Source: Hoylesella timonensis 4401737 = DSM 22865 = JCM 15640
GTDB taxonomy: Bacteria; Bacteroidota; Bacteroidia; Bacteroidales; Bacteroidaceae
Length of the DNA stretch: 64,000 bases
NCBI RefSeq assembly: GCF_000455445.1
Contig: NZ_HG417094.1
Coordinates: 12,834 to 76,833 of the forward strand
Reading direction: 5' to 3'
Every line of letters begins with the position of its first letter. Positions within the stretch are counted from its first letter, which is position 1. The position numbers and the translations under genes were made by a program. Of the stretch, positions 1 through 15,975 are shown in pieces. Below the pieces are notes generated by a model. The model ran no database searches. It had not been told where the DNA came from and worked only from the letters and a program-made list of their open reading frames with translations.

Positions 1-42
1 ATGAGTGTACCGTGACATGCGATACATAAAAGAATATGAATA

Positions 43-74
43 TTTGGCACTATCTGATAAAATTCTTATCTTTG
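43..74 (+). promoter_or_regulatory. Bacteroidetes-type promoter for tRNA-Arg
   Basis: TTTG at 43-46 and TATCTTTG at 67-74 are separated by 20 bases, which fits the Bacteroidetes sigma-ABfr consensus TTTG-N19/21-TAnnTTTG. Transcription would begin near base 80, about 30 bases before the tRNA. Confidence 0.6.
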
Positions 75-109
75 CAACGCTTTCCAACTTAGAAAGCTGC
101 CACACAATT

Positions 110-181
110 GCTCCCATAGTTAAATGGATAGAACGTAGGTTTCCTAAACCTTTGATCCGAGTTCGATTCTCGGTGGGAGTA
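110..181 (+). tRNA. tRNA-Arg (anticodon CCT)
   Basis: A full cloverleaf can be folded by eye. The acceptor arm GCTCCCA (110-116) pairs with TGGGAGT (174-180), with one G-T pair at the first position. The anticodon stem carries the loop TTCCTAA, giving anticodon CCT (arginine, AGG codons). The T arm is CCGAG-TTCGATT-CTCGG, followed by discriminator A at 181. CCA is not encoded. A T-run (185-190) follows directly and probably ends transcription. Confidence 0.93.
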
Positions 182-529
182 CTGTTTTTTAGAAAAAGAA
201 GACAGTCAAAATTAGCTAAGTTGAAAAGAAACGAAATGCACACAAGTCGTCGATTGACAAATTTATGTTAAATTTCATTAGCTTAACAGTGATATCGTTT
301 CTTATTTCTTTTATTTATCCTATATTTGTACTAAACAAGAGGTATCCCAATGAGGGGACAACGCTTGCGTATCAATCACTAACGAAAAAACACAAGAGCA
401 TTACAATCATTGAATGTACGTGATATTACGCTTAGTGTATCATGTCATTGTTGAGCGAGAGCGTACCTTATTTAGACTATCTTTTGTTATTGTTTGGCAA
501 TTCAGTTTCACAAAGTAACCTTCAAAAAC
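182..529. other. Intergenic stretch between tRNA-Arg and the ADP-ribosylglycohydrolase-like gene
   Basis: Apart from the T-run after the tRNA, I see no gene or clear structured element here. A weak TATCTTTT at 478-485 could be a -7 box for the next gene but has no convincing TTTG partner. Confidence 0.5.
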
Positions 530-1327
530 ATGACAGGCGCAATCATAGGAGATATTGTAGGATCTCAATTCAGATTTAACACCACTGACGTAAAAGATAA
601 CGTCGAATTGTTTACTAATGAGTGTAGTTTTACAGATAATACGATTTGTGCAGTTGCAATTGCAGATGCAATTATGAACAATGGCTCTTATCAAGAAGCG
701 TTATTAGACTGGTGTCATCGTTATCCAAATCCACAAGGCGGATACAGCGACATGGTTAAACAATGGTTGAAAGACCCCACAACCTCTACAGTCAGTTCAT
801 TTGACAATAGTGCTGCCAAGCGCATTGGTGCTGTGGGTTGGTTGTTCAATGACTATCATCAGGTGGTATCAGAAAGCAAAAGATGTGCCGAGGTGAGTCA
901 TACTCATCCTGAAGCCATTAAGGGGGCGCAGTGCGTTGCCACTTTAATTTATTGGCTACGTACCTGTAGAATACGAAGAGAGGAAATAGAAAAAGCGGTG
1001 AAACATAATTTTGGGTATGAAATTCCAAGTCTTCGAGAGATATATGCCTCCATTCATCATGGACAGAATGATGCTGCGTGCCAGGAGATTGTACCTTGGT
1101 CTATTAGATGTTTTTTAGAAAGTGAGAATTTCGAAGATGCGCTACGGATAGCTATAAGTATAAGTGGAGATTCTGTTGCCGAAGCGGTTATATGTGGGAG
1201 TATAGCCGAAGCGTATTACCAAATACCTGATGAGTTGATAGAAAAGGCTTTTGGCTACCTAACAAAAGATATATTGCAAATCGTTGAGCAATATTATGAA
1301 TATTTGGGAAGCCATCTAAATAAATAG
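530..1327 (+). CDS. ADP-ribosylglycohydrolase-family protein, metal site degraded
   Basis: The 265-residue product matches the ADP-ribosylglycohydrolase (DraG/ARH) fold: MTGAIIGDIVGS at the N-terminus, a FTDNT motif at residues 34-38, NSAAKRIGAVGW in the middle and SGDSVAEAV...GSIAEAYYQIP near the C-terminus. Active members bind two Mg2+ through T-D-D-T near the N-terminus and G-G-D-S-D-T near the C-terminus. Here these read T-D-N-T (Asn37) and S-G-D-S-V-A (Val216, Ala217), so at least three metal ligands are replaced. The ATG at 530 is preferred over an upstream TTG at 494 because family homology starts there. It is a single gene, separated from its neighbours. It may have lost hydrolase activity and kept ligand binding; that is inferred. 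Confidence 0.85.
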   Translation: MTGAIIGDIVGSQFRFNTTDVKDNVELFTNECSFTDNTICAVAIADAIMNNGSYQEALLDWCHRYPNPQGGYSDMVKQWLKDPTTSTVSSFDNSAAKRIGAVGWLFNDYHQVVSESKRCAEVSHTHPEAIKGAQCVATLIYWLRTCRIRREEIEKAVKHNFGYEIPSLREIYASIHHGQNDAACQEIVPWSIRCFLESENFEDALRIAISISGDSVAEAVICGSIAEAYYQIPDELIEKAFGYLTKDILQIVEQYYEYLGSHLNK

Positions 1328-1340
1328 TCGTCTATTTTTT
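1322..1340 (+). terminator. Terminator overlapping the stop codon
   Basis: AAATAG (1322-1327) and CTATTT (1332-1337) form a short stem with loop TCGT, followed by T residues. The TAG stop codon of the preceding gene lies inside the 5' arm. The stem is short and AT-rich, so it is weak. Confidence 0.45.
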
Positions 1341-1476
1341 TAGAACAATGCCTCCCAAATACGTGCTTGTTTAATATATCGTTGTGAGAATGAAATGCTC
1401 TTCTCAAAATACAATTCTTACATTGAACGACAGTTCCTCGAAGAAAGGGACGAAGGAGGAGTTGAGAGATGAGCAA

Positions 1477-2868
1477 CTACAATCCTTGTAACTTCTCTTT
1501 TACACTTGCTAATTTCTTGTCTTGGTCACCCGTTAGCTCTAAATATTTCTGCAAATCTATGAGCATGTCTTTTGCCTCTTTCGTTTTTCCCATACCTACT
1601 AATTTATCAGCGATAGGTAGTGCTAAGTCTGCATCTCTATATGTAGCATAAAACAGTTTTAGCCATTCCGCAGCTTGTTCACGTTGATTGGCAGGGGGAA
1701 CTTTGTTGTCCCAATAATAATCCCACGAACTAAAAAGAGACCCAGCTACTAATTGAGAACTAACACCTGTCAGTAGTTGTAGAAATCCATAATTTTGCGT
1801 TTGTTCCTTTTTCTCTTGTTCGCTCACATTGGGGTCATTCATAAAATCTGAATACGACTTTGCCTTTTCTGTGGAACGTTTCAACAAGGTGTCTGAGGGA
1901 GCTTGTTGCTGCAACTCTTTAATGAAAGCAGCATAATGGGATTTGAATTCTTCACGATAATTGTTTTTCCTGAAGAACGTTAGCTGAATAATCTCTTTCT
2001 TCATGTAGCCAAGTCCACCACCTAAAGAAGCCAGCATGCCATTGTTCTGATTAGAAGGTTCTAACTCATCAAGTTTCACCTTAAATTCATACAATTCATT
2101 AAAATCTTTTTTATGATTATTATCAATGGCTTCATTTAAGAAATTGCTTAAAATACTCATCACCGTCTTGTCGAATCGCAGGAAATCTTTTCGATTCGCC
2201 GATTCTTTCTTGGATGCGAGGACTTTCAACAACTTCTGCATGACCTCATTTTCATAAGTGTTGGTCTCAAGTAATAGTTTAGAAATATTGACATCGGTGA
2301 GTTCGTCATCAGAGAGTAATAATATCAATTCGTTCAAAGGTCGTTCGCCCTTGTAGCCAAACGCCATTCGTTTACTGCAATATTGTTTCAGAAAATCCTT
2401 TCCTCGTTCCCCCTTTTGGTATTGTGCTTCCATTTTTTCTAAGTCGGGCAACAAGGTTCCATTTTCTATCGCTTTCTGTCCTTGCTTGAGTATCTGCTTT
2501 ACATTTTGGTAAGCCGAAAAAGAGTGTACAGGCTTTCCATCTGGTAGAAGGAACAAACAGGTGGGATAAGCTTTTACTCCATAACGTTTAGCAATTTCTA
2601 CACCTTCTCCTTTTTCTGCATCAATCTGATAATTTATAAAGTGAGTGTTGAAATAATCGCCCACTTCTTTTTGAGTAAAGGTCTCTCTTGCCATCTTTTT
2701 ACAGGGACCGCACCAGGAGGTGTACACATCCATAAAAATGGGCTTATTCTCCATTTTGGCTTTTTCTACCAACTGCTTCCACGTCCCTGTGAAGAACACA
2801 ATACCCTGTGCTTTTACATTTTGAGTACATAAAGCAAGCAGAGTACAAATGGTTATTAAATATTTCAT
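1477..2868 (-). CDS. Secreted thioredoxin-fold protein with C-terminal helical domain
   Basis: The start is set at ATG 2868, which overlaps the previous gene's stop as ATGA. This gives 463 residues with a signal peptide (MKYLITICTLLALC...KAQ). A thioredoxin domain follows, with W-C-G-P-C at 52-56 and the cis-Pro loop AYPTC. About 300 residues of mostly helical, repeat-like sequence fill the C-terminus. The N-terminal domain closely resembles that of the protein at 3964-5202 (shared KEVGDYFN and EKGEG), so the two are paralogues. It is the last gene of the SusC/SusD operon. Its role is probably periplasmic thiol-disulfide exchange on a partner or cargo of the transporter, which is inferred. 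Both active-site cysteines are present. Confidence 0.85.
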   Translation of the reverse strand: MKYLITICTLLALCTQNVKAQGIVFFTGTWKQLVEKAKMENKPIFMDVYTSWCGPCKKMARETFTQKEVGDYFNTHFINYQIDAEKGEGVEIAKRYGVKAYPTCLFLLPDGKPVHSFSAYQNVKQILKQGQKAIENGTLLPDLEKMEAQYQKGERGKDFLKQYCSKRMAFGYKGERPLNELILLLSDDELTDVNISKLLLETNTYENEVMQKLLKVLASKKESANRKDFLRFDKTVMSILSNFLNEAIDNNHKKDFNELYEFKVKLDELEPSNQNNGMLASLGGGLGYMKKEIIQLTFFRKNNYREEFKSHYAAFIKELQQQAPSDTLLKRSTEKAKSYSDFMNDPNVSEQEKKEQTQNYGFLQLLTGVSSQLVAGSLFSSWDYYWDNKVPPANQREQAAEWLKLFYATYRDADLALPIADKLVGMGKTKEAKDMLIDLQKYLELTGDQDKKLASVKEKLQGL

Positions 2869-3959
2869 TTGTCGCATAATTTAGATACTTCAATTTTTAA
2901 CTTCTCTCCTCTAAGATCATTGGAAACGATAACACCATTTTCATCCAGTAAGAACATCGCTGGAACGCCTGAAACATTATAAAGCTGAGCCACAGGACAC
3001 TTCCATCCTTGTAGTGATGAAAGTTGCAACCATGGTAAATTATATTTCTTGATGGCTGTTGTCCAATTTTCTTTTTTTTGATCGAGGGATACTGATACAA
3101 TCTCAAATCCTTTTGAATGGTATTCAGCATAAACCGCTTTTACATTTGGAAACTCTCTTATGCACGGTGCACACCATGACGCCCAAAAGTCGATAAGTAC
3201 ACATTTACCTTTGATTGATGACAGAGAAACAGACTTACCTTCTGGTGTTTGTAATGTAAAGTCTGGAGCCTTAACATCTACCCCTACTGCTTTCATCTTC
3301 GCTAATGTTTCTTGTAAGTCAGTTCCAATCGAAGAGTTTTTAACCCGATTACTCAACTGGTTATATAACTTCTGCACTTCAGAATATGTCCTATCTTTAC
3401 TCAAATACTTATTGATAATAACCCCAGCCACATAACTATCAGGGCACTGCGTGGCAATGCTATCAAAAACCGATAATTTTTCTTTGTGAGTCGTTATAAA
3501 TAATTGTTGCAGCGTGTCTTTTTGCTGTTCAGTAATCTCTTTCCCAGCCATGGATAAAGCAAGCATAGACATCATCTCCATAGAGAGCGCATTATTCATC
3601 TTATCGAGCAATTTCTGATCTTTCGAACCCTTTATGGTTATGTCAGGGCGCATTATCGTTTTGCCTTTGATGTCTATGGGCGTTTCAACATAAGTCACTT
3701 GGGTAGGAAATTCATCGAGCATAAAAACCTTATTGGTTCTTCCTACTTTAAGGTAGGCGGGACCAACCAATGTTAATTTATTGGACATGTTAAACTTCCC
3801 ATTAGAAACAATAGTAGAATCAATAGGTTGTTTCTTTTCGTTAGACAAAAGTACCTTTAGACCGTCATGTCCCACAGCCGTACCTTGAATGTTGTATTGA
3901 TTTTGTGATGTTGCTGTTAAGCTTACCAGCAACAATAACGCCATTAGAATTTGTTTCAT
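2865..3959 (-). CDS. TlpA/ResA-type thiol-disulfide oxidoreductase with N-terminal DUF4369-like domain
   Basis: The start at ATG 3959 lies 4 bases after the previous stop; an upstream in-frame ATG at 4007 would overlap the neighbour. The product is 364 residues: a signal peptide (MKQILMALLLLVSLTA), a beta-rich region (about 20-110) resembling DUF4369, a helical linker, then an AhpC/TSA-thioredoxin domain with A-S-W-C-A-P-C (cysteines at 263 and 266) and cis-Pro in SGVPAMFLL. Proteins of this architecture are common periplasmic reductases in Bacteroidetes, related to ResA/TlpA. It sits between the two paralogous thioredoxin-fold genes, so three redox proteins are made together from one transcript. 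Confidence 0.88.
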   Translation of the reverse strand: MKQILMALLLLVSLTATSQNQYNIQGTAVGHDGLKVLLSNEKKQPIDSTIVSNGKFNMSNKLTLVGPAYLKVGRTNKVFMLDEFPTQVTYVETPIDIKGKTIMRPDITIKGSKDQKLLDKMNNALSMEMMSMLALSMAGKEITEQQKDTLQQLFITTHKEKLSVFDSIATQCPDSYVAGVIINKYLSKDRTYSEVQKLYNQLSNRVKNSSIGTDLQETLAKMKAVGVDVKAPDFTLQTPEGKSVSLSSIKGKCVLIDFWASWCAPCIREFPNVKAVYAEYHSKGFEIVSVSLDQKKENWTTAIKKYNLPWLQLSSLQGWKCPVAQLYNVSGVPAMFLLDENGVIVSNDLRGEKLKIEVSKLCDK

Positions 3960-3963
3960 TTCG

Positions 3964-5202
3964 TTATTTCTTAAAATATTGTTCAACAGATTTACGAGCC
4001 TTTTCATTCTCTTGATTAAACTTCTCCATCTGTTGGCGAGCTAATGATTTCTTTCCAAGCTTCTGATTGATGTTCGCCATTGTTTCATACATCGTAAATG
4101 CGTAGTTCTGCTTTGACGAACTGTTTACAAAAGAGTCAAGCGTCTGTAGAAATTCTTTCAACATACTCTTATCATTCACCACCGTAACCAAATATCGGAT
4201 ATATTTATCCATATTGAGTGGATTATAATAATTTAATTTCATTCGATGCGCTAACTTGATAACTTTCCAAGCCTCGTTATATTGCTTATTCAACAAAAGT
4301 TTATGAACATAAAAGCGTATTTTGTAATCGTTAACACATGCCAGTTGGGCTTGCTCCATGAGTGCTATCATTTTTTGAGCTTGAACCGTATCAGTATTCA
4401 ATGGCAAATAAGATTTTTGCGCTTCATCATATTTTAATTGAAACAATCTGCGCAATTCATAAGTACAAGCATTTGATATCTGCTGATTTATCTTAAAGCG
4501 ATCTCGATTTAAGGCGTATCCGTAACGTGCAGCATTCCTTACTAAATAGGCAAATGTTGGAGAGTTTACGTCGGTGATGTACCTTCCAAAAGCATTCCAC
4601 ACCTTATCCTTGTCCAACTCTTTAGGGTCATTTTTGCCTAAATATTCTTCTGCAATAATTCTGGCACTATCTTTTAAGAAGGCATTATTCAGACTCGCTA
4701 CGTATTCACACAAGAAATCAAGCTGACGATTACCTGCATGATATTCTTTACTCAGTGTGAAAAGGTCGCGACCTTCCAATGCTCGTTTGGCTCCTGCAAT
4801 GAGCTGAGCAGCATCTTTATATCCTGCCATTTGCTGAACTACTTCTCCTTTCTTATTGATAAAGAGAAGTGTAGGGTAGCCAACGATATTCTTCTTGTAA
4901 CGATCGTGAAGCATTTTACCTTCGCCTTTTTCCATATCGTACTTCACATTGATAAAATGCTGATTAAAATAATCACCTACTTCTTTCAGTGGAAATATAT
5001 CACGTGCTAATAATTTACATGGACCACACCAAGTGGTGTAACAATCCATAAAAATAATCTGCTCTTTTTCTTGAGCCAACTTTAGCATATCGCTCCATGT
5101 CGGATTGTCATGAAAAACAATGCCTTCAGCTGATTGTGCAGCAGAAAACGAACTGTATAACAACAAACAAGACAGGACGACTAAAAATTTTTGTTTCAAC
5201 AT
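3964..5202 (-). CDS. Secreted thioredoxin-fold protein with C-terminal helical domain (paralogue)
   Basis: This 412-residue protein has a signal peptide (MLKQKFLVVLSCLLLYSSFSAAQ) and a thioredoxin domain with W-C-G-P-C at 58-62 and the cis-Pro motif GYPTLLF. A helical C-terminal half of about 250 residues looks like TPR-type repeats, although I cannot define individual repeats. It is paralogous to the protein at 1477-2868 over the first 130 residues. Only 3 bases separate its start from the stop of the lipoprotein gene upstream, so it belongs to the same operon. The function is inferred as periplasmic thiol-disulfide exchange. Confidence 0.87.
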   Translation of the reverse strand: MLKQKFLVVLSCLLLYSSFSAAQSAEGIVFHDNPTWSDMLKLAQEKEQIIFMDCYTTWCGPCKLLARDIFPLKEVGDYFNQHFINVKYDMEKGEGKMLHDRYKKNIVGYPTLLFINKKGEVVQQMAGYKDAAQLIAGAKRALEGRDLFTLSKEYHAGNRQLDFLCEYVASLNNAFLKDSARIIAEEYLGKNDPKELDKDKVWNAFGRYITDVNSPTFAYLVRNAARYGYALNRDRFKINQQISNACTYELRRLFQLKYDEAQKSYLPLNTDTVQAQKMIALMEQAQLACVNDYKIRFYVHKLLLNKQYNEAWKVIKLAHRMKLNYYNPLNMDKYIRYLVTVVNDKSMLKEFLQTLDSFVNSSSKQNYAFTMYETMANINQKLGKKSLARQQMEKFNQENEKARKSVEQYFKK

Positions 5203-5205
5203 GTT

Positions 5206-6165
5206 TTATTTCTCTTTATAATCAAAATCAGACAACTTCACTTGATCGTCTGGGAAGTGAGCATTCTGTTCGGCTATCAAGTCTCGTTTCTGAACCTCTT
5301 TGAAGAACTTAATAAACAGAACGCTACGCTTTGCCAATCGCCAATAATACGATGTGTGCTGACGAATATAGCTACCTTTGTTTTTGGTAATGAAGGTAAG
5401 AAAATCTGTATAATCTTGTGCTTCGGTAGGTTGGAACACCCCAGTGCTTCCATATCCTTTTACATAGCCACAGACATTCGCACTGTGTTGAGCATTCTTC
5501 CAGTCAGGTTTTTTCTTCATTTCATTTGCTATTGACTTATCAACGGGCCATGTTACTAATCTAAATTTACACTCTACGCGAGAACTCAAAAACTTTTCAG
5601 GTTTAGCAGGTAAATTATCGTAGAAATATGTACCAAAAATATTACCTAATTCCTTTTCGTATTGAGATTTAAAAAAAGGCTTTCCTTTTTTTCTTTCACA
5701 ACCGATGATAAAAGCTTCTTGACCATTGCTGGTGGCTGCAATTAAATCTGATTCTGCATTTGACGTCTTATGAAGTTCTTTTACCAAAAACATTTTATAG
5801 GGAAGATTCTCTTTTAAGAAATCCTCATCGTAAAGTTTTAGAAAGCCTTCTTCTATATAAGAAACTAATTGATGTAGGTTTTCAACATCCTCGGCGTTGT
5901 TGAGATCAAATTTGGAATAACTGTTACGAAACTTTCCTGCCCAAAGCCAAGTAATATCGGCATCAGAAAAATCGTAAAGAACAGCCATACCAAACTTCTT
6001 GTGCCATTGGTTGATCATGGAATCAGCTTGCGATTTACCTGCATTGGCTTTCAACTGCGCTGCATATTCGGGAGTAGTATCAACAGCTGGAACGATGTCT
6101 TCCTCGGAACAAGCGGCAAATACGCCAACAAGTACTATCCATCCAATATATACTAATTTCTTCAT
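5206..6165 (-). CDS. Lipoprotein related to SusD-linked zinc metallopeptidases, HExxH lost
   Basis: The 319-residue protein starts with a lipoprotein signal (VFAAC, Cys19). Its layout resembles the putative zinc-binding metallopeptidase lipoproteins (Mx1 type) that lie next to SusD genes in many Bacteroidetes. In those proteins an HExxH helix is followed by a downstream Y-x-x-Y/E-D-F segment. Here the helix reads K-E-L-G-N at 171-175, so both zinc-binding histidines are absent while the glutamate remains; the later part reads GYVKGYGSTGVF...DYTDFLTF. It lies 18 bases downstream of the SusD stop and just before the thioredoxin genes. It is probably a surface lipoprotein that binds rather than cuts substrate. 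The family assignment is from memory of motif order, so moderate. Confidence 0.62.
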   Translation of the reverse strand: MKKLVYIGWIVLVGVFAACSEEDIVPAVDTTPEYAAQLKANAGKSQADSMINQWHKKFGMAVLYDFSDADITWLWAGKFRNSYSKFDLNNAEDVENLHQLVSYIEEGFLKLYDEDFLKENLPYKMFLVKELHKTSNAESDLIAATSNGQEAFIIGCERKKGKPFFKSQYEKELGNIFGTYFYDNLPAKPEKFLSSRVECKFRLVTWPVDKSIANEMKKKPDWKNAQHSANVCGYVKGYGSTGVFQPTEAQDYTDFLTFITKNKGSYIRQHTSYYWRLAKRSVLFIKFFKEVQKRDLIAEQNAHFPDDQVKLSDFDYKEK

Positions 6166-6183
6166 TGCTCTTTGTTTTTAAGT

Positions 6184-7716
6184 TTATTGTGCTTGAATCA
6201 CTCTTCTGTTGGTTCGCTCAACTGCGCTATTATAGTTGAGCTCGCTATAAGGCAATTCTAACGTATAATTTTTATCACCACTCTTAAGAATGTAAGTCTC
6301 AGGGGTTGCATTTTTAGCTGCATAGAAGATATGTTCTATTTGTGGCATTCCATAGCGGCGAAGGTCAGTCCAACGATGTGTCTCTTCAAAGCATAGTTCA
6401 CGGCGTCGTTCAACACGAACAGCTTGTAGTAGTCCCTCTTTCGATGAGAACTCTTCCACTGTAAGCGGTTGATAGGCATCTGACGTGAAACGTTTCTTGC
6501 GCAAAAGGTTCAGTAGATTTATCGCTTCTGCCGAATTTCCCTTATGAACATAAGCCTCAGCCATATTCAACAAAGCCTCCGAAGTGCGAAAAGCTTGTGA
6601 ATAACTCTCAAACGAATTATGCTTATAGGGCAAGTGTCGATAATCCTCATATACCGTATATTTCTTTTTGCTGTCATCATACTCGGTATCATTTTGACAG
6701 AAAAAAGCATAAATGCGATTGTCACCAACGGCATAGCTGTTGATTAAGTCGTCTTTCTTCGTTTGTGAGGGAGCATAACCAGCACCAGTGATTAGTTTCA
6801 AGTTGTCCATATAATCGTTGGTTGTAACTATTCTACCACCGAACAAAAATACTGCTTCTGGATTTTTAGAAGAAATAAAACTAAACTTTTTTCTTACCAA
6901 TTCTTCTTTAGATAGGGACGAAAGATCATACAAGTTGAAATCATCATCAGCCAACTTAGCTCCATAGGTTATCACATCGTCCCAATTTTCCATAAATAAG
7001 GCAACGCGACATCTCAGTAGAGAAACAGCTTTTTGATTCATTAGATACAGATTATTTGTTTTCTTCGCCTTGTCAAAGAGTTGTTGAGCTTGTTCCAAGT
7101 CACTATTTATTTGTTGGTAAACAGCTGCAACAGAAGCTCTCTTAGGCGTATCACGCACCATTTCACTCTTCAAACGCAGGATCACACCCATGTCTTTATC
7201 GGCAGTTGTCTTGTTATATGGCGTACCGTACCAGTTTACCAAGTAAAAATAATTCATGGCGCGAAGCGCATAAGCCTGTGCTATGCACGAATAGATAGAA
7301 GCATTGTCGCCAATCATTGAACCTTCATTTTCTATAATGGTGTTACATGCCATAATATTTTTGTAACGATTCTGATAAGGTTTGGCATAATTTGCATCGT
7401 AAAATTCTATATCCTGTGCCCAAGTAAAAGCTCCCTTTCCTACTGGTAGGAAAACGTTGTCATCGGCTTCGGCTTGCGTGCTATTCGCATTGGCAGAAGC
7501 GGAAACCTCCACATCGTCTGTTAACAAATCCATCCACATAACATCGTTAGTAAAAGAGTTAGGATAGCCATCACCCACTAACAAGGAATGAAACTCCTCT
7601 ACTTTCTGAGGAATGAGCAAATCTTCTGACGTTTCTTTTAGATAGTCGTCACATGAGGTCGCTCCAACTATCATACCTAAAGCAACGATATAAATATAAA
7701 GATGATATTTTTTCAT
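6184..7716 (-). CDS. SusD/RagB-family nutrient-binding lipoprotein
   Basis: The product is about 510 residues, with a lipoprotein signal (VGATSC) followed by DDYLKE, typical of the mature N-terminus of SusD proteins. Late motifs fit RagB/SusD, for example RTSEALLNMAEAYV and VRVERRRELCFEETHRWTDL. It begins just after the SusC stop (alternative start ATG 7725, 9 bases upstream). SusD proteins cap the SusC barrel at the cell surface and deliver glycans or peptides. The partner genes are thioredoxin-like and peptidase-like rather than glycoside hydrolases, which suggests a peptide or protein cargo; this is inferred. Confidence 0.93.
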   Translation of the reverse strand: MKKYHLYIYIVALGMIVGATSCDDYLKETSEDLLIPQKVEEFHSLLVGDGYPNSFTNDVMWMDLLTDDVEVSASANANSTQAEADDNVFLPVGKGAFTWAQDIEFYDANYAKPYQNRYKNIMACNTIIENEGSMIGDNASIYSCIAQAYALRAMNYFYLVNWYGTPYNKTTADKDMGVILRLKSEMVRDTPKRASVAAVYQQINSDLEQAQQLFDKAKKTNNLYLMNQKAVSLLRCRVALFMENWDDVITYGAKLADDDFNLYDLSSLSKEELVRKKFSFISSKNPEAVFLFGGRIVTTNDYMDNLKLITGAGYAPSQTKKDDLINSYAVGDNRIYAFFCQNDTEYDDSKKKYTVYEDYRHLPYKHNSFESYSQAFRTSEALLNMAEAYVHKGNSAEAINLLNLLRKKRFTSDAYQPLTVEEFSSKEGLLQAVRVERRRELCFEETHRWTDLRRYGMPQIEHIFYAAKNATPETYILKSGDKNYTLELPYSELNYNSAVERTNRRVIQAQ

Positions 7717-7727
7717 GATTCTCAAGT

Positions 7728-10700
7728 TTAAAATAAAATATTCACTCCAAAGTTGAAACTCGGCATCAACGGCATATTGGCATACGCTGTTTCAGGATCC
7801 ATGCCCTCCCATTTCTTAGACTTCCAAATTTTTAGATTGCTTGCAGTCATTCTCAAAGTCATCGCTTTCACATTGATAGATTTGAGCCATGCTTCAGGCA
7901 GACGATAGCTAAGCATTACATTTCGTAAACGTAAAAAGTCGCTACTTGCTACCCGAATATCACTATTGTCGTACATGCTTACCATTCGCACATCTACATC
8001 TCGGCCAATATCATATAAACCCTTTAATTCTTCAGGGAAATCATCGGCTATACGAGTATCATACAAGGCGGGAATATCCGTTTTAGTCTCGTCTCCTTTG
8101 CTACGCCAGCGATTATTGAAGAGGGTAGACACGTTTTGTGTGGGGTCGAAAGCCTTGCTTGCATCTTTGTATATAGATGGTAGTCGGCGCTTGCCTCCTA
8201 ACTGATAAGAAAATCCAACACTAAGGCTCAGATTTTTCTTAAAGGTTAAGCGGGTGTCGAAACCTCCTGAAAGTCGTGGATAAATACTTCCCGATGCTAC
8301 GAGTTCCATTACTTGATAATCGCCTTCGTGAACTTTTCTTCCATCTTTGGTATAGAATAATGGATATCCATTATCTGGTGATAATCCTGCAAAACGGAAA
8401 GAGTAAATAGTACCTAAAGGTTGACCTATCGTTGCCACATTGCCACGTAACATCGCTTCGTAGGTCTCTTTCTCAGACAGTGCTGCGTCGTAGGCGTACC
8501 GTACCTCATTTGAATTATGACTGAAGTTATATGAAACGTTCCATTCCACGTTTTTATTTCTAATAGCATCCAAACTGATAACGCCCTCAAGTCCTTCGTT
8601 AATCGCCTCACCGGCATTCATAAACATAAACAGTCTGCCAGTTGATGGTGAAACTTGCATATCAGTAATCAAATCTGATGTTTTCTTCTTATAGTAATCC
8701 ACCGTAAACGTAAGCCTGCGTTGCCAGAAAGAAGCATCCAAGCCAATATTATATGAACGAGTCTTCTCCCAGCGTAAATCAGGATTTGGCAGGTGTCGAA
8801 TGTATCCAGAACGCAAACCTGTGATATCATCAATCCGGCCCATTTGAGCTATTAAATAAGGTGAAGAGTCATCGTGTATGTTACCTTGCAATCCGTAAGA
8901 AGCGCGGATAGAAAGATTATCAATCATCTTAACGTTCTTCATAAACGCTTCGTTAGAGATAAACCACTTGCCCGCAACCGACCAAGTTGGTAACCAACGG
9001 TATTTAGGATTGCTACCAAATTTGTTGGCTCCATCGGAACGAATGTTTGCATTGAATACATACCGATTATCGAAAGTATAGCTTGCAGTACCAAAGTACG
9101 AAGCTATTTGTGTAACTCTATCTGTTAATCTTGGATTGAACATGCCACCTACCATCAAAGCATTATATCGTTTGGTATAAGCAGGCGACACGGATTGTCC
9201 ATAAGTTGGGTCCCAACCATAAGAGAGTTGAGAGGAACCACTGTATTTGTCCGAACGTATTTCAATACCTCCAAACAAATTTATCTCATGCTTATCCGAA
9301 TATACTTGAATATAGTTCAGGGTGTTACGCCACGAATAAGAATGCTTTGAAGTGTTGGCTTCATTCAAAATTCCGCCCACAGGTAAGGGTGAATTGTCAA
9401 ATTGTGTACTTCCTCGATCGTATGCACCATAGTTATAACCTCTGACTTTTCCCACTTCGTAAGAATGTTCGTTGGCGAATTTTTTACTGCGTGTATTTCC
9501 CCAATAGCTGGAGAAAGTAGAGGTGTACTTTAAGCCATTTAGTAAATGGGCATTCAAGTTGATTAATCCTCCCAGTCTGCGAATATTGGTTTCCATTCCT
9601 GTTGTAGCTAATTCGTTAAGGATATTAAAATCAATCTCGTTCGAAAAAGAACTTTTGGAATAGTAATATAATTCATCATGGTTGTATAATGGGAGAGAAC
9701 GTGAAGTGTTAAAAGCATACGAGAAAGGATTAACACCGTAAAAGCCTTCGTTGGTTTGATTGCTTAAATCAAATTTTACATCCACATCAAATATGCGGTT
9801 AATCTTTACGAATACTTTACTTAGGCCTGTAAAGCGATTACTCTCCGAACCTTTGGCAATACCAGGAGCGTCGTTATAACTCAAAGAGGCATAATAATGT
9901 ACCCTACTTGTACCACCGTTGAGTGACACATTATGGCTCTGGCTCAATGTTTCGCGGAACAAATGCTTAAACCAATTGGTGTTCATTGTTTCATATCGCT
10001 GAACTTCTGATGCAAACTGTTTGTGCGTTATTTTCCGTTTCAAATAGCGTTGCAAAGCTCCCTCGTAGCTTTCATCTGTAGGGACACGAGGGTATTGTAA
10101 GCGAGCATCATAAATATCTTTAGATAATTGCACACGCTCTTGAGAATTCATCAAATCAAACATACCATAAGTAGGACGAGTACTCATATTTAAGTTCATG
10201 TCATAGGTAATTGTCGGAGCCATGACTCTACCTTTTTTCGTCGTTACAACAATTACACCATTGGCAGCCTTCACACCATAAATTGCGGTGGCAGAAGCAT
10301 CTTTAAGCACACTGATAGATTCTATGTCTTGAGGACTCAAACCTGAAATGCTGTTACCAATCAAATAAGAAGCATCGGGACTGTTCAAATCAGAAACTGA
10401 AAAAGGAACAGTTTCTGACATAATAACTCCGTCTACCACCCAAACAGGTGCTTTATTTCCGTTAATTGTAGAGTTACCACGGATGCGAATGACAGGTGTA
10501 CTGCTGGGTTCCCCCGACTGCAACATCACAGACATGCCTGGTATCTTGCCTTGTAGCATTTGGTCTAAGCTCATGGCGGATGGCGTAAACACATCTTTCA
10601 TTTTCACCGTTGATATGGCGGCGGCTGATTCTCTACGACTCAAGTTTTGGTAACCTGTCACCACCACTTCTTCAATCGCTTTCGAGTCATCCTCCATCAC

Positions 10701-11003
10701 AACAATCTTGAGTAATCCATCTCTTAACGTTTCGGTTACACTTTTCATACCCAAGTACGAAAAAATGAAATCTCGTTTCTCTTGTCCTTTGGCTTCAAAC
10801 CTAAATTCCCCATCTACATTGGTAACAACGCCTTGTTTCGCATCGACTGGTCTTACTGACACTCCGATTATTGGCATGCCTTGCTGATCGACCACCTTTC
10901 CAATAAAGAATCCTGATGTTTGCGCATGAGAAAAAATGCTGAACGTAAGGCACAAAAGCAATAAGCTAATACCCCGAAGCCTAAAACATGTTGTATGTTC
11001 CAT
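7728..11003 (-). CDS. SusC/RagA-family TonB-dependent outer-membrane transporter
   Basis: The start is placed at ATG 11003 because it begins a clean signal peptide (FRLRGISLLLLCLTFSIFSHAQ); the upstream ATG at 11033 adds a charged tail. The product is 1091 residues. A carboxypeptidase-like regulatory domain (GKVVDQQGMPIIGVSV) comes first. A TonB plug follows with VWVVDGVIM and SVLKDASATAIYGVKAANGVI, then a large beta barrel ending in an aromatic-rich strand (FGVNILF). It has no STN domain, unlike the two other SusC genes here, so it is probably not coupled to an ECF sigma/FecR relay. It heads the operon that runs down to 1477. Confidence 0.95.
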   Translation of the reverse strand: MEHTTCFRLRGISLLLLCLTFSIFSHAQTSGFFIGKVVDQQGMPIIGVSVRPVDAKQGVVTNVDGEFRFEAKGQEKRDFIFSYLGMKSVTETLRDGLLKIVVMEDDSKAIEEVVVTGYQNLSRRESAAAISTVKMKDVFTPSAMSLDQMLQGKIPGMSVMLQSGEPSSTPVIRIRGNSTINGNKAPVWVVDGVIMSETVPFSVSDLNSPDASYLIGNSISGLSPQDIESISVLKDASATAIYGVKAANGVIVVTTKKGRVMAPTITYDMNLNMSTRPTYGMFDLMNSQERVQLSKDIYDARLQYPRVPTDESYEGALQRYLKRKITHKQFASEVQRYETMNTNWFKHLFRETLSQSHNVSLNGGTSRVHYYASLSYNDAPGIAKGSESNRFTGLSKVFVKINRIFDVDVKFDLSNQTNEGFYGVNPFSYAFNTSRSLPLYNHDELYYYSKSSFSNEIDFNILNELATTGMETNIRRLGGLINLNAHLLNGLKYTSTFSSYWGNTRSKKFANEHSYEVGKVRGYNYGAYDRGSTQFDNSPLPVGGILNEANTSKHSYSWRNTLNYIQVYSDKHEINLFGGIEIRSDKYSGSSQLSYGWDPTYGQSVSPAYTKRYNALMVGGMFNPRLTDRVTQIASYFGTASYTFDNRYVFNANIRSDGANKFGSNPKYRWLPTWSVAGKWFISNEAFMKNVKMIDNLSIRASYGLQGNIHDDSSPYLIAQMGRIDDITGLRSGYIRHLPNPDLRWEKTRSYNIGLDASFWQRRLTFTVDYYKKKTSDLITDMQVSPSTGRLFMFMNAGEAINEGLEGVISLDAIRNKNVEWNVSYNFSHNSNEVRYAYDAALSEKETYEAMLRGNVATIGQPLGTIYSFRFAGLSPDNGYPLFYTKDGRKVHEGDYQVMELVASGSIYPRLSGGFDTRLTFKKNLSLSVGFSYQLGGKRRLPSIYKDASKAFDPTQNVSTLFNNRWRSKGDETKTDIPALYDTRIADDFPEELKGLYDIGRDVDVRMVSMYDNSDIRVASSDFLRLRNVMLSYRLPEAWLKSINVKAMTLRMTASNLKIWKSKKWEGMDPETAYANMPLMPSFNFGVNILF

Positions 11004-11400
11004 ACTTTTTCTTTTTTTATTGTTTCGGTACAATGATTATTTGTTAATATATTAAGATAATTTATCAAATGAGCACGAATACTTTTTTATGGTATTCAAT
11101 AAATCTTAAAGTTTACTTTGTTCACAAAGATAAGTAAATATAATGAATTAAAGACAAAATAGAAAAGAAATTAAGGAAGAAGATATAAAAATATTTGTAT
11201 ATTTTCAACTTTTCTAACAAAAATGATGCTAAGATGGAAAGTAAGAATGAAACAAAGAATACGATTATATCGTTCTTAGAATTAAACAAGATTAACAATT
11301 TTGGGCGCTTGACCATGCATGAATAAGCGCAACTTATCGCCATACTACCATTAACTCATGTTATCTATAAAAGGATAGCTTGTATACAGAGAAAAAAGCC
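11004..11400. other. AT-rich intergenic region upstream of the SusC operon
   Basis: This stretch contains the probable promoter and leader (about 115 bases) of the SusC operon on the minus strand. An open frame of 73 codons at 11122-11343 (minus) is AT-rich, overlaps that promoter and has no recognisable family, so I do not call it a gene. Confidence 0.5.
11125..11158 (-). promoter_or_regulatory. Probable Bacteroidetes-type promoter of the SusC operon
   Basis: On the minus strand TATCTTTG (11125-11132) is preceded by TTTG (11155-11158) with a 22-base spacer, slightly longer than the usual 19-21. Transcription would start near 11119, about 115 bases before the chosen SusC start. Confidence 0.45.
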
Positions 11401-12639
11401 TTATATGAAGAGCGCAGCATATAACAGATATCCCCAATGTGCGGCAAGCGCAGCTGCAAGTCCTCCGATAGTATGAGAAACAATGGCCTTAGAGGTAAGT
11501 TCCCGATAGCCAATGGTGTCAAGCATTGCTGTATGTGTACTAAGGAAACCGCTCCAACACATTCCAATACCAGTGAATACAGCTATGGCATTGCCATCCA
11601 GCCACCCTTGTGACATAAAGTTGGGCACTAAGCTCAATGCAGCACCAACTGCTCCGAGCGCAGTGATAGGGAAGGCAATCTGGTGTGGGTCTGAAAATCC
11701 AAAGAGCGGATTTAGTAGCCAATCTAATTTGTTTGCAATGGCTGGTAAAATGGCAATTCCCTCATAAGCTTTGCCTGTGAAATTGCCTTCTGCACTGGCT
11801 CCAAACGTGAGTATCATTACTAACGTAGAAATAATAAGCACACCGGGGATGATGGAAACACCAACGTCGACGCCCGATTTTCCTCCGTCTAACAGAGAAT
11901 TGAGTATGCGCAGAAACACCGATGTTTCTTCACGGTGTAACTGACGAATGGGTTGCTGGCGAAACTTCTCTCCATCCAAAGCTTCTTCGGAACGATATTG
12001 CGGATAAGCTTTGAGTACAAAGTGTTGCATGAGCCTTGTTGAGACTACGCACCCAATGCAGGCGCCTGTAAAACCAATGAGGGGTTCCACGAAATAACCG
12101 TTGCCTAACATGAAGACGATGACAATGAGCCCCATGCCAAACGCTGTGCCGAAATTGGTGAGCGAAATATACTGATACTTTTTGAAATAACTACCGAAAT
12201 GCTTGTCTTGTGCCAAAGTGATAATGGCAGGATTGTCGGAGAGAAACGTTAATACCGCTCCAAGTGAAGCCACTCCTGGCAGTCTGAACACGGGTTTCAT
12301 CAATGGTCGCAAGACTCGTTCTATTAAGTCTACAACTCCAAACTCAACAAATAGCTTCCCTAAGGCACCTGTCAACACACAGATGCCCATGAGATAAAAG
12401 CAGGTGTTGAGCAACAAGTCGTGAGCCGTGTGCATAATGGTGTTGAGCATGTTAGCCACTCCCATAATGCTTGCTATTCCTCCAAACAGTCCAGTGATGA
12501 TAAGCAGACATATAATCCCCTTTGGCATTCTTTTCTTTTTCTTATCATTGCTCCTGTCTGTTGTTTGCTGTTGGGGCAATTCATCCTGTGTAGAGACAGT
12601 TTCTCTCTTGACCTCTGTATTATTCACTTTGTTTGTCAT
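11401..12639 (-). CDS. Nucleoside-recognition (Gate) domain membrane protein, YjiH-like
   Basis: The 412-residue protein has a charged cytoplasmic N-terminus of about 40 residues (KKKKRMPKG) and then around ten hydrophobic segments. Two Gate-type halves are visible, with FLSDNPAIITLA and FGTAFGMGLIVIVFMLGNGYF in the first half and SQGWLDGNAIAVFTGIGMCW in the second. Such nucleoside-recognition domain proteins are inner-membrane proteins related to concentrative nucleoside transporters. The substrate of this subgroup is not established. It lies downstream of the GH20 gene, separated by 327 bases that contain a hairpin, so it may have its own promoter. Confidence 0.82.
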   Translation of the reverse strand: MTNKVNNTEVKRETVSTQDELPQQQTTDRSNDKKKKRMPKGIICLLIITGLFGGIASIMGVANMLNTIMHTAHDLLLNTCFYLMGICVLTGALGKLFVEFGVVDLIERVLRPLMKPVFRLPGVASLGAVLTFLSDNPAIITLAQDKHFGSYFKKYQYISLTNFGTAFGMGLIVIVFMLGNGYFVEPLIGFTGACIGCVVSTRLMQHFVLKAYPQYRSEEALDGEKFRQQPIRQLHREETSVFLRILNSLLDGGKSGVDVGVSIIPGVLIISTLVMILTFGASAEGNFTGKAYEGIAILPAIANKLDWLLNPLFGFSDPHQIAFPITALGAVGAALSLVPNFMSQGWLDGNAIAVFTGIGMCWSGFLSTHTAMLDTIGYRELTSKAIVSHTIGGLAAALAAHWGYLLYAALFI

Positions 12640-12966
12640 TAAGGTTCGTAATCGTGTGTATCTTTTACTCTCATTATTGAAAGATATCTGTAAACGCCAC
12701 CATTCTATGAGGTTGGAGCCGTGGCGTTTTCAGATATTGCTTTCATATAATGGTTCTATATTTGCGACTTCATTTGTATTTTGCTGGCAAATTTAAGATT
12801 TTTATTAGTATCTATCTTATTTCTGACTTTATTTTTTGTTCATCATTGATATTTTCTGATTCGATAATGACATTTCAATTGTTTTATCAATGTTTGCCAA
12901 ATATCTTTTATGAATCATGCTGCCAATAGTCACAAGGCTTACAAAAAGAGCACTGCAACTTTTGGT
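12640..12966. other. Intergenic region with a 9-bp stem hairpin
   Basis: AAACGCCAC (12692-12700) and GTGGCGTTT (12721-12729) form a perfect 9-bp stem with a 20-base loop. Short T-runs occur on both sides, so the hairpin could terminate the GH20 transcript or lie in the leader of the Gate-protein gene. I see no gene in this stretch. Confidence 0.5.
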
Positions 12967-14916
12967 TTATTGCAAGCTTTCTACTTTTAAGTGGGTTATC
13001 TTGCTATTGAAACTGCCTGTCTGTAACAGAGGGAAGACAAGTGTACGAATGTAATAAAGGTCTCCTCGCTTTCCAAAATTAATTTTCTTAACATTCAGTT
13101 CACTCACTAATTTGCCATTGACGAAAAGACTTGTTTGCTCACGATTTCCTTCTATCATCACTTGCGCCTTTGCATGTGGAAAGAATTGATAACCAAATGT
13201 GTTCAGATAGCCGTCTCTACTAAATCCTAACAGTCCAGAGATGGGGTCAGATAAGTAAAATTTGGCATTTGGTGAGCTAAACAAGACCGTTCCCGGAGCT
13301 TCCTCGGCTGCTTCAATATGAAAAGAAATTCGGTAGTTCCAGCCTATCTGTTCTATTGCGTTGCGCTCGTTAGGCGTCACCACATCTTTAGTCAGTACGA
13401 CACCCGGTTGGTATCGCCCAGCATAGTTTACGCCAGGAGCTTCGCTAAGTTGTTTCTTTTTGTCTGTAAAGTAGGCGTAATCAAAGGAAGGCTTTGCACC
13501 TGTCCACATTTTCGTAGACAACGTTTGCAGTGCTGGCATCACTCTATAATGCACGTCTTGTGGACTAATACCATTGCCAACAATATCGTTCCACACCGCA
13601 AACATTCCTCCTTTTATTTTGGGATGACGCTCTGGGAATATCACATCATTGATATTGGCTGGTGTCCACTGCTTATACAGATGTTCGGTATTAAGATAAT
13701 CGTAATAGTAGCCTGCCTTTGGTACAATGTACAAGTAACGGTCTGGAATGCTCACTAAATCGTATCCAAGGTCAATCATTTCCTTTGGTTGCGAATAATC
13801 GTTGGACCATGCGTACATGAGTACATCTTTCACTTTTATAGGAGTCTTTCCTTTTGCGTGCGTTTGTTGTCCCCATACCAAAGCTTGTTTGCCAAAACTC
13901 TCCACATATTTTATATATCTATCGGTAAAATATCTGAATTTCTCTACCACAGCTTGGTCTTTATTCGAATATTCATCGGTGCCAATGTGTACACGCTTCC
14001 CACGAAAAACGGGGTCAACACCTCCTAAATATTCTTTGAACAACCCATCTAAGAATGTATATGTTTCGGGATTAAAAAGGTCTAAGTGATCCATGTCATA
14101 TTCCTTGCTGGCTATCTCTGGTTTGTAATGTGTAAACGCCAACGAATGAGCTGGGACATCAATTTCTGGAATAATCTCGACATGAAGACTATCAGCGAGT
14201 TTCTGTAACTCGATAAATCCTTTTTTTGTGTAATAACCATCACGAGCGGTAAGTCCTGGATAAGTATCACATTCCAATCTAAAAGCGGCTTGCGTTTTAT
14301 TCCAGTCGTTATCGAAAAACTGTTTGAAACCATTGTCATTCAAATGAATATGCAGCGCATTCATTTTATAATAAGCCATGATTTTAACATATTCCCGAAG
14401 CATATCTATAGGAAAGAACTTGCGCCCACAGTCAATCATCAACCCACGGAACGGATAGTCTGGTGCGTCGGTGATAGTGCCGCATGGTAAAGAACCTTTG
14501 TTTTGTTCAGACAATTGGAGCAATGTACGAGTACCCCAATACAGCCCCTGCACCGTCGGCGCAATTATTTTAATGCTGGAGCCAATAACCATTGTATAAG
14601 ATTCGGGGTTCGCTTTCTTGTTTTTCTTTACAACTAATTCTATATTTCCTACTTTATTTTTCCCCTTCAGAACGTTTAATCTCTGACCAAACATCTGTTG
14701 GTAATCGCTTGATAGTTGTGTGGCTATTTGCTGAACCCCTGTCTCATTACTTCGATAAGTAATACACGTTTGTGACTTTATGGCAAAAGAACCACTTCCT
14801 CCTTTCCATGTTTTAATTTCTGGAATGGTAAAAGGTTTTTCGTTTGTAACTGAATAAATGTTGTTGCAGATGCTCAGCAATAAGAGCAGTAGTAAAGTTT
14901 TAAGTTGTGTTCTCAT
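12967..14916 (-). CDS. Beta-N-acetylhexosaminidase, glycoside hydrolase family 20
   Basis: The 649-residue protein has a signal peptide (MRTQLKTLLLLLLLSICNNIYS). A GH20 N-terminal alpha/beta domain (about 30-145) precedes the catalytic barrel (about 150-480). The catalytic Asp-Glu pair is visible as HIGTDEY (Asp314-Glu315). Other GH20 motifs are IDCGRKFFPIDMLREY, NALHIHLND and EIIPEIDVPAHS. A C-terminal beta-sandwich follows (about 500-649) with a LamG-like segment. GH20 enzymes remove terminal GlcNAc or GalNAc from glycans through substrate-assisted catalysis. It lies 35 bases after dusB on the same strand and may be co-transcribed. Its substrate fits the GH85, GH29 and GH92 genes further along. 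Confidence 0.94.
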   Translation of the reverse strand: MRTQLKTLLLLLLLSICNNIYSVTNEKPFTIPEIKTWKGGSGSFAIKSQTCITYRSNETGVQQIATQLSSDYQQMFGQRLNVLKGKNKVGNIELVVKKNKKANPESYTMVIGSSIKIIAPTVQGLYWGTRTLLQLSEQNKGSLPCGTITDAPDYPFRGLMIDCGRKFFPIDMLREYVKIMAYYKMNALHIHLNDNGFKQFFDNDWNKTQAAFRLECDTYPGLTARDGYYTKKGFIELQKLADSLHVEIIPEIDVPAHSLAFTHYKPEIASKEYDMDHLDLFNPETYTFLDGLFKEYLGGVDPVFRGKRVHIGTDEYSNKDQAVVEKFRYFTDRYIKYVESFGKQALVWGQQTHAKGKTPIKVKDVLMYAWSNDYSQPKEMIDLGYDLVSIPDRYLYIVPKAGYYYDYLNTEHLYKQWTPANINDVIFPERHPKIKGGMFAVWNDIVGNGISPQDVHYRVMPALQTLSTKMWTGAKPSFDYAYFTDKKKQLSEAPGVNYAGRYQPGVVLTKDVVTPNERNAIEQIGWNYRISFHIEAAEEAPGTVLFSSPNAKFYLSDPISGLLGFSRDGYLNTFGYQFFPHAKAQVMIEGNREQTSLFVNGKLVSELNVKKINFGKRGDLYYIRTLVFPLLQTGSFNSKITHLKVESLQ

Positions 14917-14951
14917 TTTTTTTATCTCTTTCTGTCTTGTTGAATTAGTAA

Positions 14952-15935
14952 TTATTTTACAATTATTTCACGGCATTTTGCAAGGATATCTTCCAGTTCT
15001 TTTACCGTTGTGGCACGTAACATGGCAATTCGTGTCTGCCTAAAGTCGGGTATTCCCTTGAATATTGGACTTGCAGCCAAGTGTCTGCGCGTGTGCAAAA
15101 TGCCACGATATTCGTCAATGCGATCCACGTTGATGTGCAATTGCTCTAACAAGATGTCCAACTTCTTGTTTAGATCAAAGCTTTCATCAATTGGTTTCCC
15201 GTCTAAGTAGTTGCGCATCTCTTTGAATATCCAAGGGCATCCAAACGAGGCGCGTCCCACCATAACACCGTCTACACCGTATGTCTCGAAGGCGTGCTTG
15301 GCTTCTTCTGCAGAGGTGATGTCTCCGTTTCCGATGATAGGAATGTGGATGCGTGGATTCTTTTTCACTTCACCTATCAGCGTCCAGTCTGCTTTTCCTG
15401 TGTACATCTGACTTCGTGTACGTCCATGAATGGTCAGTGCCTGTATGCCACAGTCTTGTAATTGCTCTGCCAGTTCGGTAATAATGAGATGGCTTGCATC
15501 CCATCCCAACCGAGTTTTCACGGTTACGGGAATATGTACAGCCTTTACTACTTCACGTGTGATTTCCAACATCAAGGGAATATTCTGCAACATTCCTGCT
15601 CCTGCTCCTTTTCCTGCAACTTTCTTTACAGGACATCCAAAGTTAAGATCAATGACATCGGGTTTACTTTGTGCTACAATCTGTGCCGCTTCAACCATTG
15701 ATGCCACATCTCTTCCATAAATCTGAATACCCACAGGGCGTTCTTCTTCACAGATAGTGAGCTTGCTGACCGTCGATTTGATGGAACGCACCAATGCTTC
15801 GGCACTCACAAACTCGGTGTACACCATGGATACTCCAAAGCGTTTGCAGAGCAATCTAAATCCTATATCAGTAACATCCTCCATGGGTGCTAAAAATAGA
15901 GGGTACTTTCCTAAATCAATATTTCCTATTCGCAT
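14952..15935 (-). CDS. dusB: tRNA-dihydrouridine synthase (DusB type)
   Basis: The 327-residue protein opens with IDLGKYPLFLAPMEDVTD, the flavin-binding start of Dus proteins. It has the signature DLNFGCPVKKVAGKGAGAGM with the catalytic Cys, and the phosphate-binding segments IIGNGDITSAEEA and GVDGVMVGRASFG. It reduces specific uridines in tRNA D-loops using FMN and NADPH. Length and motifs match the DusB subgroup. It lies between dprA and the GH20 gene, with a 16-bp tandem repeat in the gap to dprA. Confidence 0.95.
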   Translation of the reverse strand: MRIGNIDLGKYPLFLAPMEDVTDIGFRLLCKRFGVSMVYTEFVSAEALVRSIKSTVSKLTICEEERPVGIQIYGRDVASMVEAAQIVAQSKPDVIDLNFGCPVKKVAGKGAGAGMLQNIPLMLEITREVVKAVHIPVTVKTRLGWDASHLIITELAEQLQDCGIQALTIHGRTRSQMYTGKADWTLIGEVKKNPRIHIPIIGNGDITSAEEAKHAFETYGVDGVMVGRASFGCPWIFKEMRNYLDGKPIDESFDLNKKLDILLEQLHINVDRIDEYRGILHTRRHLAASPIFKGIPDFRQTRIAMLRATTVKELEDILAKCREIIVK

Positions 15936-15943
15936 ATTTTAGA

Positions 15944-15975
15944 GTTGACGAGTTCACAAGTTGACGAGTTCACAA
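15944..15975. repeat. Perfect 16-bp tandem direct repeat
   Basis: GTTGACGAGTTCACAA occurs twice head to tail at 15944-15959 and 15960-15975, in the 104-base gap between dprA and dusB. It could be a local slippage repeat or a member of a short intergenic repeat family. Confidence 0.85.

Follow-up and report, generated by a model that had tools for sequence, protein, structure and literature searches.

A stretch of 64,000 nucleotides from Hoylesella timonensis 4401737 = DSM 22865 = JCM 15640 (contig NZ_HG417094.1, positions 12,834 to 76,833; the whole stretch is here called the window) contains a six-gene operon in which a SusC/SusD pair (SusCD) is followed by a lipoprotein, named Lip in the following, and by three proteins of the thioredoxin fold. 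The operon is read here, with moderate confidence, as a RagAB-like SusCD uptake system for extracellular disulfide-bonded proteins or large peptides, the disulfide part of this reading being suggested by the domain content of the operons and by proteins in which thioredoxin and peptidase domains are fused. More tentatively, it may represent a Bacteroidota-wide, previously undescribed class of SusCD importers, combining a surface pseudo-peptidase receptor with a periplasmic "reduce and cut" module, in which thioredoxin and peptidase domains, separate or fused, would reductively unfold the imported polypeptides before or during their digestion.

The operon and the recurrence of its gene order

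The components of the operon, with a candidate promoter, are the following (window coordinates).

7728..11033, minus strand: SusC/RagA TonB-dependent outer-membrane channel (TIGR04056); likely ATG start at 11003; STN not found
6184..7725, minus strand: SusD/RagB lid lipoprotein (PF07980 and PF14322)
5206..6165, minus strand: Lip, a zincin-fold lipoprotein with HExxH lost; lipobox followed by SEED; probably surface-exposed
3964..5202, minus strand: Trx1, secreted, with an N-terminal thioredoxin domain (WCGPC) and an all-alpha C-terminal region (about 270 residues)
2865..4007, minus strand: TlpA/ResA-like thiol-disulfide oxidoreductase carrying DUF4369 at its N-terminus (WCAPC); translation likely starts at codon 17
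1477..2877, minus strand: Trx3, secreted, with a thioredoxin fold (WCGPC) and a long C-terminal region
11125..11158, minus strand: candidate Bacteroides-type promoter (TTTG, 22 bases, TANNTTTG), upstream of SusC

The six open reading frames (ORFs) all lie on the minus strand, from position 11033 down to 1477, in the order SusC, SusD, Lip, Trx1, TlpA/DUF4369 and Trx3; with the longest starts the gaps between them amount to 2, 18, 3, -44 and -13 bases, and every gap is still small when later ATG codons are taken (codon 17 of TlpA, codon 4 of Trx3, and codon 11 of SusC, from which the boundary at 11003 follows). An earlier reading of the letters without database searches (the sequence-only reading) had described six tightly packed genes with gaps or overlaps of 18 bases or less, an arrangement which the ORF coordinates confirm as real. 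The operon resembles Sus-like polysaccharide utilization loci in combining SusC and SusD with an additional lipoprotein, but differs from them in that Pfam finds no carbohydrate-active domain in any of its six proteins, reductases being present instead, so that its interpretation as a glycan utilization locus was rejected; the absence of a glycoside hydrolase, already claimed by the sequence-only reading, is borne out by the same scan, which gave zero such matches among the six proteins.

The arrangement is a recurrent, widespread class in Bacteroidota, as a comparison of genomic loci (labelled by L-numbers) makes clear. The locus L025, from another genus of the same family, has the six genes in identical order, and L148, L166 and L167 keep SusC-SusD-Lip-Trx1-TlpA, with no Trx3 after TlpA. 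The largest comparison pooled the Lips found by a Lip profile (136, or 125 when made nonredundant at 90%) and required at least 5 kb of downstream DNA, a threshold that removed 11 nonredundant loci whose Lip lacks the HExxH zinc site (102 to 91); loci found by TIGR04549 only (20 with and 8 without HExxH) lie outside these counts. Within 8 kb of the HExxH-less Lips a thioredoxin-fold gene is found in 67 of 91 loci (24 have none), a profiled peptidase in 41 and either of the two in 81, against 1, 0 and 1 of the 23 HExxH-bearing loci. For thioredoxin the nominal Fisher P is 7.5e-10, a value which overstates the contrast between the two groups because the loss of HExxH is a single change on a quick tree and thus one comparison. 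The sole thioredoxin match among the HExxH-bearing loci (L056) looks by eye like a peroxiredoxin lying beyond an unrelated gene, and was kept in the count.

Other samples point in the same direction. In a first set of loci found by the Lip profile, with the seeds (not picked for thioredoxins) and the window included, a same-strand thioredoxin-fold gene lies within 8 kb downstream of the HExxH-less Lip in 35 of 41 cases and upstream in none of the 41; the HExxH-bearing loci gave 1/18, and the HExxH-bearing set found by TIGR04549 1/20. In the genus sample, thioredoxin occurs in 14 of 18 loci, and thioredoxin or a met-zincin in 16. Anchoring on the channel instead (the best 80 of 567 SusC relatives, 69 with at least 7 kb downstream and 11 with less), a stretch of 10.5 kb counted from the end of SusC contains thioredoxin in 31 of 48 loci with a HExxH-less Lip, and thioredoxin or peptidase in 40 of them; the controls gave 0/8 with an HExxH-bearing Lip and, where no Lip was recognised, 3/13 for thioredoxin and 4/13 for thioredoxin or peptidase. 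The search for the same gene order across Bacteroidetes, proposed as a check together with the sequence-only reading, thus reveals neighbours that are not random and a thioredoxin link recurring in several Bacteroidota families.

As to control signals, the Bacteroides-type promoter pattern has a single minus-strand match between 1477 and 11400, at 11158-11125; since its matches in the whole window (6, with 3.2 expected by chance) are no rarer than chance, this candidate is weak on its own. Sigma-70-like and terminator-like sites are fewer than in shuffled sequences and none stands out, and control by a riboswitch was rejected, Rfam at its gathering threshold giving a tRNA alone over window 1-16000. 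Just past the 3' end of the operon, on the opposite strand, an ADP-ribosylglycohydrolase gene (PF03747; 494-1327) sits between the operon and a tRNA-Arg (110-182). The window holds two more SusCD pairs (31475-36990 and 42658-48012), resembling ordinary glycan systems, with FecR- and sigma-factor-like genes, recognised by eye, between them.

Properties of the protein components

The window's Lip matches nothing in Pfam or NCBIfam; with its HExxH zinc site gone it is not itself a member of TIGR04549, the family of "substrate import-associated zinc metallohydrolase" lipoproteins. In an alignment of 16 Lips that contains the window's own, TIGR04549 has 6 matches and PF15890 has 7 (E up to 1), and the Lip profile matched 9urd in the PDB (E 6e-4), an entry whose identity was not found in the literature searched. 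The AlphaFold2 model of Lip (mean pLDDT, the predicted local confidence score, of 70 only) matches 4l7a, a putative zinc-binding metallopeptidase, with a VIA-align Z of 10.8 over 208 residues and a root-mean-square deviation of 4.7, the following structural matches (Z up to 7.1) being mostly other metallopeptidases; Foldseek gives the same pair a probability of 1.00 and E 1.6e-3, which places Lip in the zincin fold group (Peptidase_Mx1, PF15890). In an alignment of 136 Lips, HExxH occurs 27 times, always at one position; of the other 109, none keeps both histidines and a single key residue out of the three survives in 4, and the window's Lip has I, F and Y in the H, E and H columns. Because the zincin fold is matched and the HExxH residues are lost, Lip is best read as a pseudo-peptidase of the TIGR04549/PF15890 group, in agreement with the "degraded metallopeptidase-like" lipoprotein of the sequence-only reading.

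The SEED that follows its lipobox resembles SDDDD, a surface-export signal described in PMC5080379, and Lip is therefore probably surface-exposed. At least two acidic residues at +2 to +5 after the lipobox are found in 77 of the 104 HExxH-less Lips whose lipobox is detectable (104 of 109) and in 20 of the 27 HExxH-bearing ones. By single-sequence search, relatives of Lip are present in 16 of 251 genomes of the family and in 15 of 249 of the genus, its own included; a search of plasmids gave no match.

The three secreted thioredoxin-fold proteins with WCGPC (Trx1), WCAPC (TlpA) and WCGPC (Trx3), as noticed from the sequence alone, are upheld by domain matches and motifs. The CxPC and a cis-Pro-Thr pair are invariant in 13 aligned Trx1/Trx3-type proteins, including the window's two, and the CxxC and cis-Pro are invariant in the TlpA-type alignment, so that all three have the CxxC and cis-Pro expected of a thioredoxin-fold reductase. 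The model of Trx1 (mean pLDDT 89.8) consists of a thioredoxin domain, whose best PDB match is 2kuc of Bacteroides thetaiotaomicron (Z 16.0), and the all-alpha C-terminal part. In likeness to the TlpA/ResA and DsbD-gamma reductases, the operon proteins are secreted and have the thioredoxin fold, CxxC and cis-Pro, and a DsbD is present in the genome; they differ in their long extra parts (DUF4369, the all-alpha C-terminus), in their location behind SusCD and in falling under the NCBIfam cut-offs, all three scoring below every listed cut-off of the ResA, TrxA and DsbD equivalogs (for TlpA among the best 25 of 27 matches), with 96.5 bits against 170 for ResA. By eye, Trx1, TlpA and Trx3 carry signal peptides without a convincing lipobox, which makes the periplasm, after import, the most likely site of disulfide reduction; VLSC in Trx1 is a possible lipobox, and the relatives in L025 and L148 have no Cys at that position. 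The single DsbD of the window's genome, with N-terminal, membrane and thioredoxin domains, is a plausible source of electrons for the operon thioredoxins.

SusC scores 671.5 bits against TIGR04056 (cut-off 368.25) and, with SusD adjacent, belongs to the SusC/RagA family; it contains Plug (2.6e-14) and CarbopepD_reg_2 domains. SusD, with 68.4 bits for PF07980 (cut-off 23.1) and 68.1 for PF14322 (cut-off 27), is a member of SusD/RagB. The solved structures nearest to SusC are 8ypu/8ypt (E 7.6e-129), RagA being more distant (E 2.5e-62). The only cysteines of SusC, at positions 16 and 28, lie in its pre-sequence and the mature protein has none; the thioredoxins therefore do not serve the folding of the channel itself.

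STN is missing from the window's SusC (zero matches up to E 0.1), as the sequence-only reading had stated, but this is not a feature of the class. Scoring of upstream regions covered 89 HExxH-less and 20 HExxH-bearing loci, after exclusion of 14 with little upstream DNA and of 2 HExxH-less ones without a recognised SusC: a SusC of at least 1150 residues occurs in 73/89 against 6/20, a FecR gene upstream in 67/89 against 7/20, and sigma-like genes in 58 of the 89 HExxH-less loci. Judging from these genes, sigma/anti-sigma control seems likely for much of the class. The FecR gene, the sigma gene and the long SusC are all absent from the window, L148, L166 and L167, and all present in L025. Since most loci of the class, L025 among them, have a long SusC and FecR, the missing STN looks like a local loss; of two loci scanned with Pfam, L195 has STN, and in L025 the long N-terminus of SusC matches FecR_C, not STN.

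Peptidases, evolutionary history and competing explanations

The genes accompanying the thioredoxins were sorted into families for all 70 further ORFs downstream in HExxH-less loci and for 83 of the 94 from HExxH-bearing control loci (11 short or far ones dropped, the 83 coming from 38 loci), both sets including unrelated genes further downstream. Among the commonest 25 of 61 families in the HExxH-less loci are DUF4953 met-zincins (8), retropepsin-like aspartyl proteases (5) and subtilases of family S8 (4), with two matches each for S41, S9, M16 and S33, some of them on one protein; in the controls the commonest 25 of 33 families include DUF4302 (38), BACON (19) and a single C10 peptidase. In the HExxH control loci (L022, L041-L073 and others) a DUF4302 lipoprotein is very often the next gene, and many contain a BACON protein.

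Thioredoxin and DPP-IV/S9 peptidase domains are fused in a single protein in L034 and L081, and in L030 and L154 an S41 peptidase and a thioredoxin domain share one protein, as checked with Pfam; L032, L158 and L160 show the same S41-thioredoxin fusion by local profile. No other single hint that one substrate undergoes both reduction and proteolysis is as strong as these fusions. Apparent fusions of aspartyl protease and thioredoxin by local profile were not counted: of four submitted to Pfam, two had the aspartyl protease below cut-off and two had none. The complete genome of Bacteroides xylanisolvens XB1A (L195) carries in a row a sigma-like gene, FecR, a SusC with STN, SusD, Lip, a TlpA-type protein, a subtilase (S8), two matches to the aspartyl-protease profile (Pfam confirms the first) and a thioredoxin protein. 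Because peptidases are frequent among the accessory genes that adjoin the thioredoxins or are fused with them, proteins or peptides are favoured over an unspecified redox-active compound as substrate. The proposal of uptake and reduction made from the sequence alone thus gains from the non-random neighbours and the recurrent thioredoxin link, and its choice of substrates is narrowed; its "coupled to import" is refined to successive steps, with reduction most likely in the periplasm following import.

A mechanism in four steps may be proposed. Lip, whose fold and lost zinc site are supported and whose location is suggested by the export-signal-like motif, would stand on the cell surface beside SusCD and use its former substrate cleft to bind or present a polypeptide, leaving it uncut; SusD and SusC, of evident family and putative substrate, would then bring the polypeptide in with TonB energy. 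In the periplasm, Trx1, TlpA and Trx3 would reduce its disulfides with electrons from DsbD, as their active-site residues and the DsbD gene suggest, and peptidases, which many sister operons encode, some of them fused to thioredoxin, would complete the digestion; for the window, these peptidases would be encoded elsewhere.

On the tree, a quick one in which 36 of 111 inner branches are weak, the HExxH-less side requires at least 13 changes in the presence of thioredoxin and at least 15 in that of peptidase; well-supported branches alone give 9 independent pairs differing in thioredoxin, with gain and loss not distinguishable, and few differing pairs when thioredoxin and peptidase are compared. 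As the accessory labels are clustered on the tree (26 changes against 63 in shuffles) yet change repeatedly, the thioredoxin link is part inheritance and part turnover.

Both this clustering and the fact that HExxH loss is one change weigh against the reading as an importer of disulfide-bonded proteins, as do several further observations. A peptidase is missing from the operon of the window itself, and a substrate of 8ypu/8ypt, nearer to SusC than RagA is, was not found in the literature searched. The HExxH-less loci found by TIGR04549 alone have thioredoxin in 0 of 8 (one of them, L040, an artefact of ORF choice), so that HExxH loss alone does not predict thioredoxin; one of these loci, L023, carries DUF4302 by Pfam. 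Finally, 10 of the 91 pooled HExxH-less loci have neither thioredoxin nor profiled peptidase, and 6 of these (L090, L152, L175, L176, L189, L193) have an ABC ATPase downstream, and the two loci examined further, L175 and L152, also encode an ABC-2 membrane protein that includes ABC_transp_aux, a weak match in L152; L191, also among the ten, has an M6 peptidase lying outside the counts of 41 and 81. By profile, the ABC ATPase occurs in 7/91 HExxH-less against 0/23 HExxH-bearing loci, once beside a thioredoxin (L179). These ABC-2-type transporter loci fall outside the proposed model and keep alive a reading as peptide sensing or export, and the confidence given above is slightly lower because of them.

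Two observations on the wider class may be added here. L023 (7088-14563), L074, L076-L079 and L099 form a further HExxH-less TIGR04549 branch, with several genes of similar size after SusD, in which thioredoxin was not found. Butyricimonas genomes (e.g. L173, L181, L184-L186, L188, L194, L198, L200, L226) contain several paralogous operons of the class, differing in their accessory set (thioredoxins, met-zincins, subtilase, ABC transporter, or none found); they are a good place to study how substrates are partitioned.

The transporter loci, six of which have the ABC-2-type system instead of thioredoxins, are also what could be expected if SusCD-Lip sensed and imported specific disulfide-bonded antimicrobial or signalling peptides from neighbours, to be handled by thioredoxins, peptidases or transporters. 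The FecR gene upstream in 67 of 89 scorable loci, which connects the greater part of the class with sigma/anti-sigma signalling, and the patchy spread of Lip among family (16/251) and genus (15/249) genomes fit such a role, which we nevertheless regard as quite improbable: the window's clade is without signalling genes, and peptidases of so many kinds speak for digestion in general.

A different possibility is that the thioredoxin-fold proteins carry out redox housekeeping or quality control, keeping SusD, Lip and further envelope proteins reduced or isomerised, and that their place in a SusCD operon is incidental. SusD has 6 cysteines and Lip 4, those of the lipobox included, which makes such a role conceivable and counts against an imported substrate; moreover, of the 24 loci in the window's genome at which a SusD profile recognised SusD (some of its SusC loci gave none), 3 have a thioredoxin-fold gene, the window's being one, and the other two SusCD pairs, of another class, thus also precede TlpA-type proteins. 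This explanation is considered unlikely, since the mature SusC is free of cysteine, the peptidase fusions would be unexpected, and the HExxH-bearing sister operons (1/23, and 1/20 in the other set) are mostly devoid of thioredoxins. The two pairs (L105:8487-13698 and L112:5084-10127) belong to operons that end in a TlpA/thioredoxin-type protein (WCAPC, WCLPC) and have DUF4843 and PKD_2 lipoproteins and no Lip; they constitute a second thioredoxin-linked SusCD class.

In the Sco/TlpA copper routes, thioredoxin-fold proteins reduce or pass on metal, and the operon might accordingly import a metal complex, haem or another redox-active small molecule, with the thioredoxin-fold proteins reducing it or handing over the metal. 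The TIGR04549 family name is listed for an iron-limitation transcriptome paper (PMC5429918), and the HExxH operons have BACON domains, which elsewhere stand beside haem-binding-like neighbours; both signals, however, belong to the HExxH/DUF4302 operons, no metal-handling family is among the commonest 25 of 61 families of the HExxH-less class, and window 1-16000 has no riboswitch at the Rfam gathering threshold, so that this explanation is held to be very improbable. Uptake of disulfide-bonded proteins or large peptides is accordingly preferred.

Relation to known systems and significance

A close parallel is RagAB of Porphyromonas gingivalis, a peptide importer according to the available portions of PMC11817032, which is likewise a TonB-dependent pair of the SusC/SusD family and whose RagA is related to SusC; it differs in that those portions mention neither Lip nor thioredoxins, and in that the window's SusC is nearer to 8ypu/8ypt. 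The TIGR04549/PF15890 operons share the SusC-SusD-lipoprotein order and the fold of the lipoprotein, but theirs keep HExxH and are accompanied by DUF4302 and BACON, while the Lip operons carry thioredoxins and peptidases. The class was not found described in the literature searched, in the parts available of papers that included PMC10434189, PMC5080379, PMC7618045, PMC4936053 and PMC11817032; because subscription journals are thinly covered there, the evidence of novelty is weak.

SusCD systems are for the most part assigned to the use of glycans, and protein uptake and disulfide handling in Bacteroidota of the gut and rumen are much less clear. A HExxH-less Lip beside SusCD offers a sequence signature for candidate protein-uptake operons, one of which is carried by a complete, named genome. 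The comparison suggests that a surface peptidase fold became a non-cutting receptor, the cutting and reducing steps having moved inside the cell, and that these bacteria may possess, in this operon class, a dedicated route for eating disulfide-bonded proteins.

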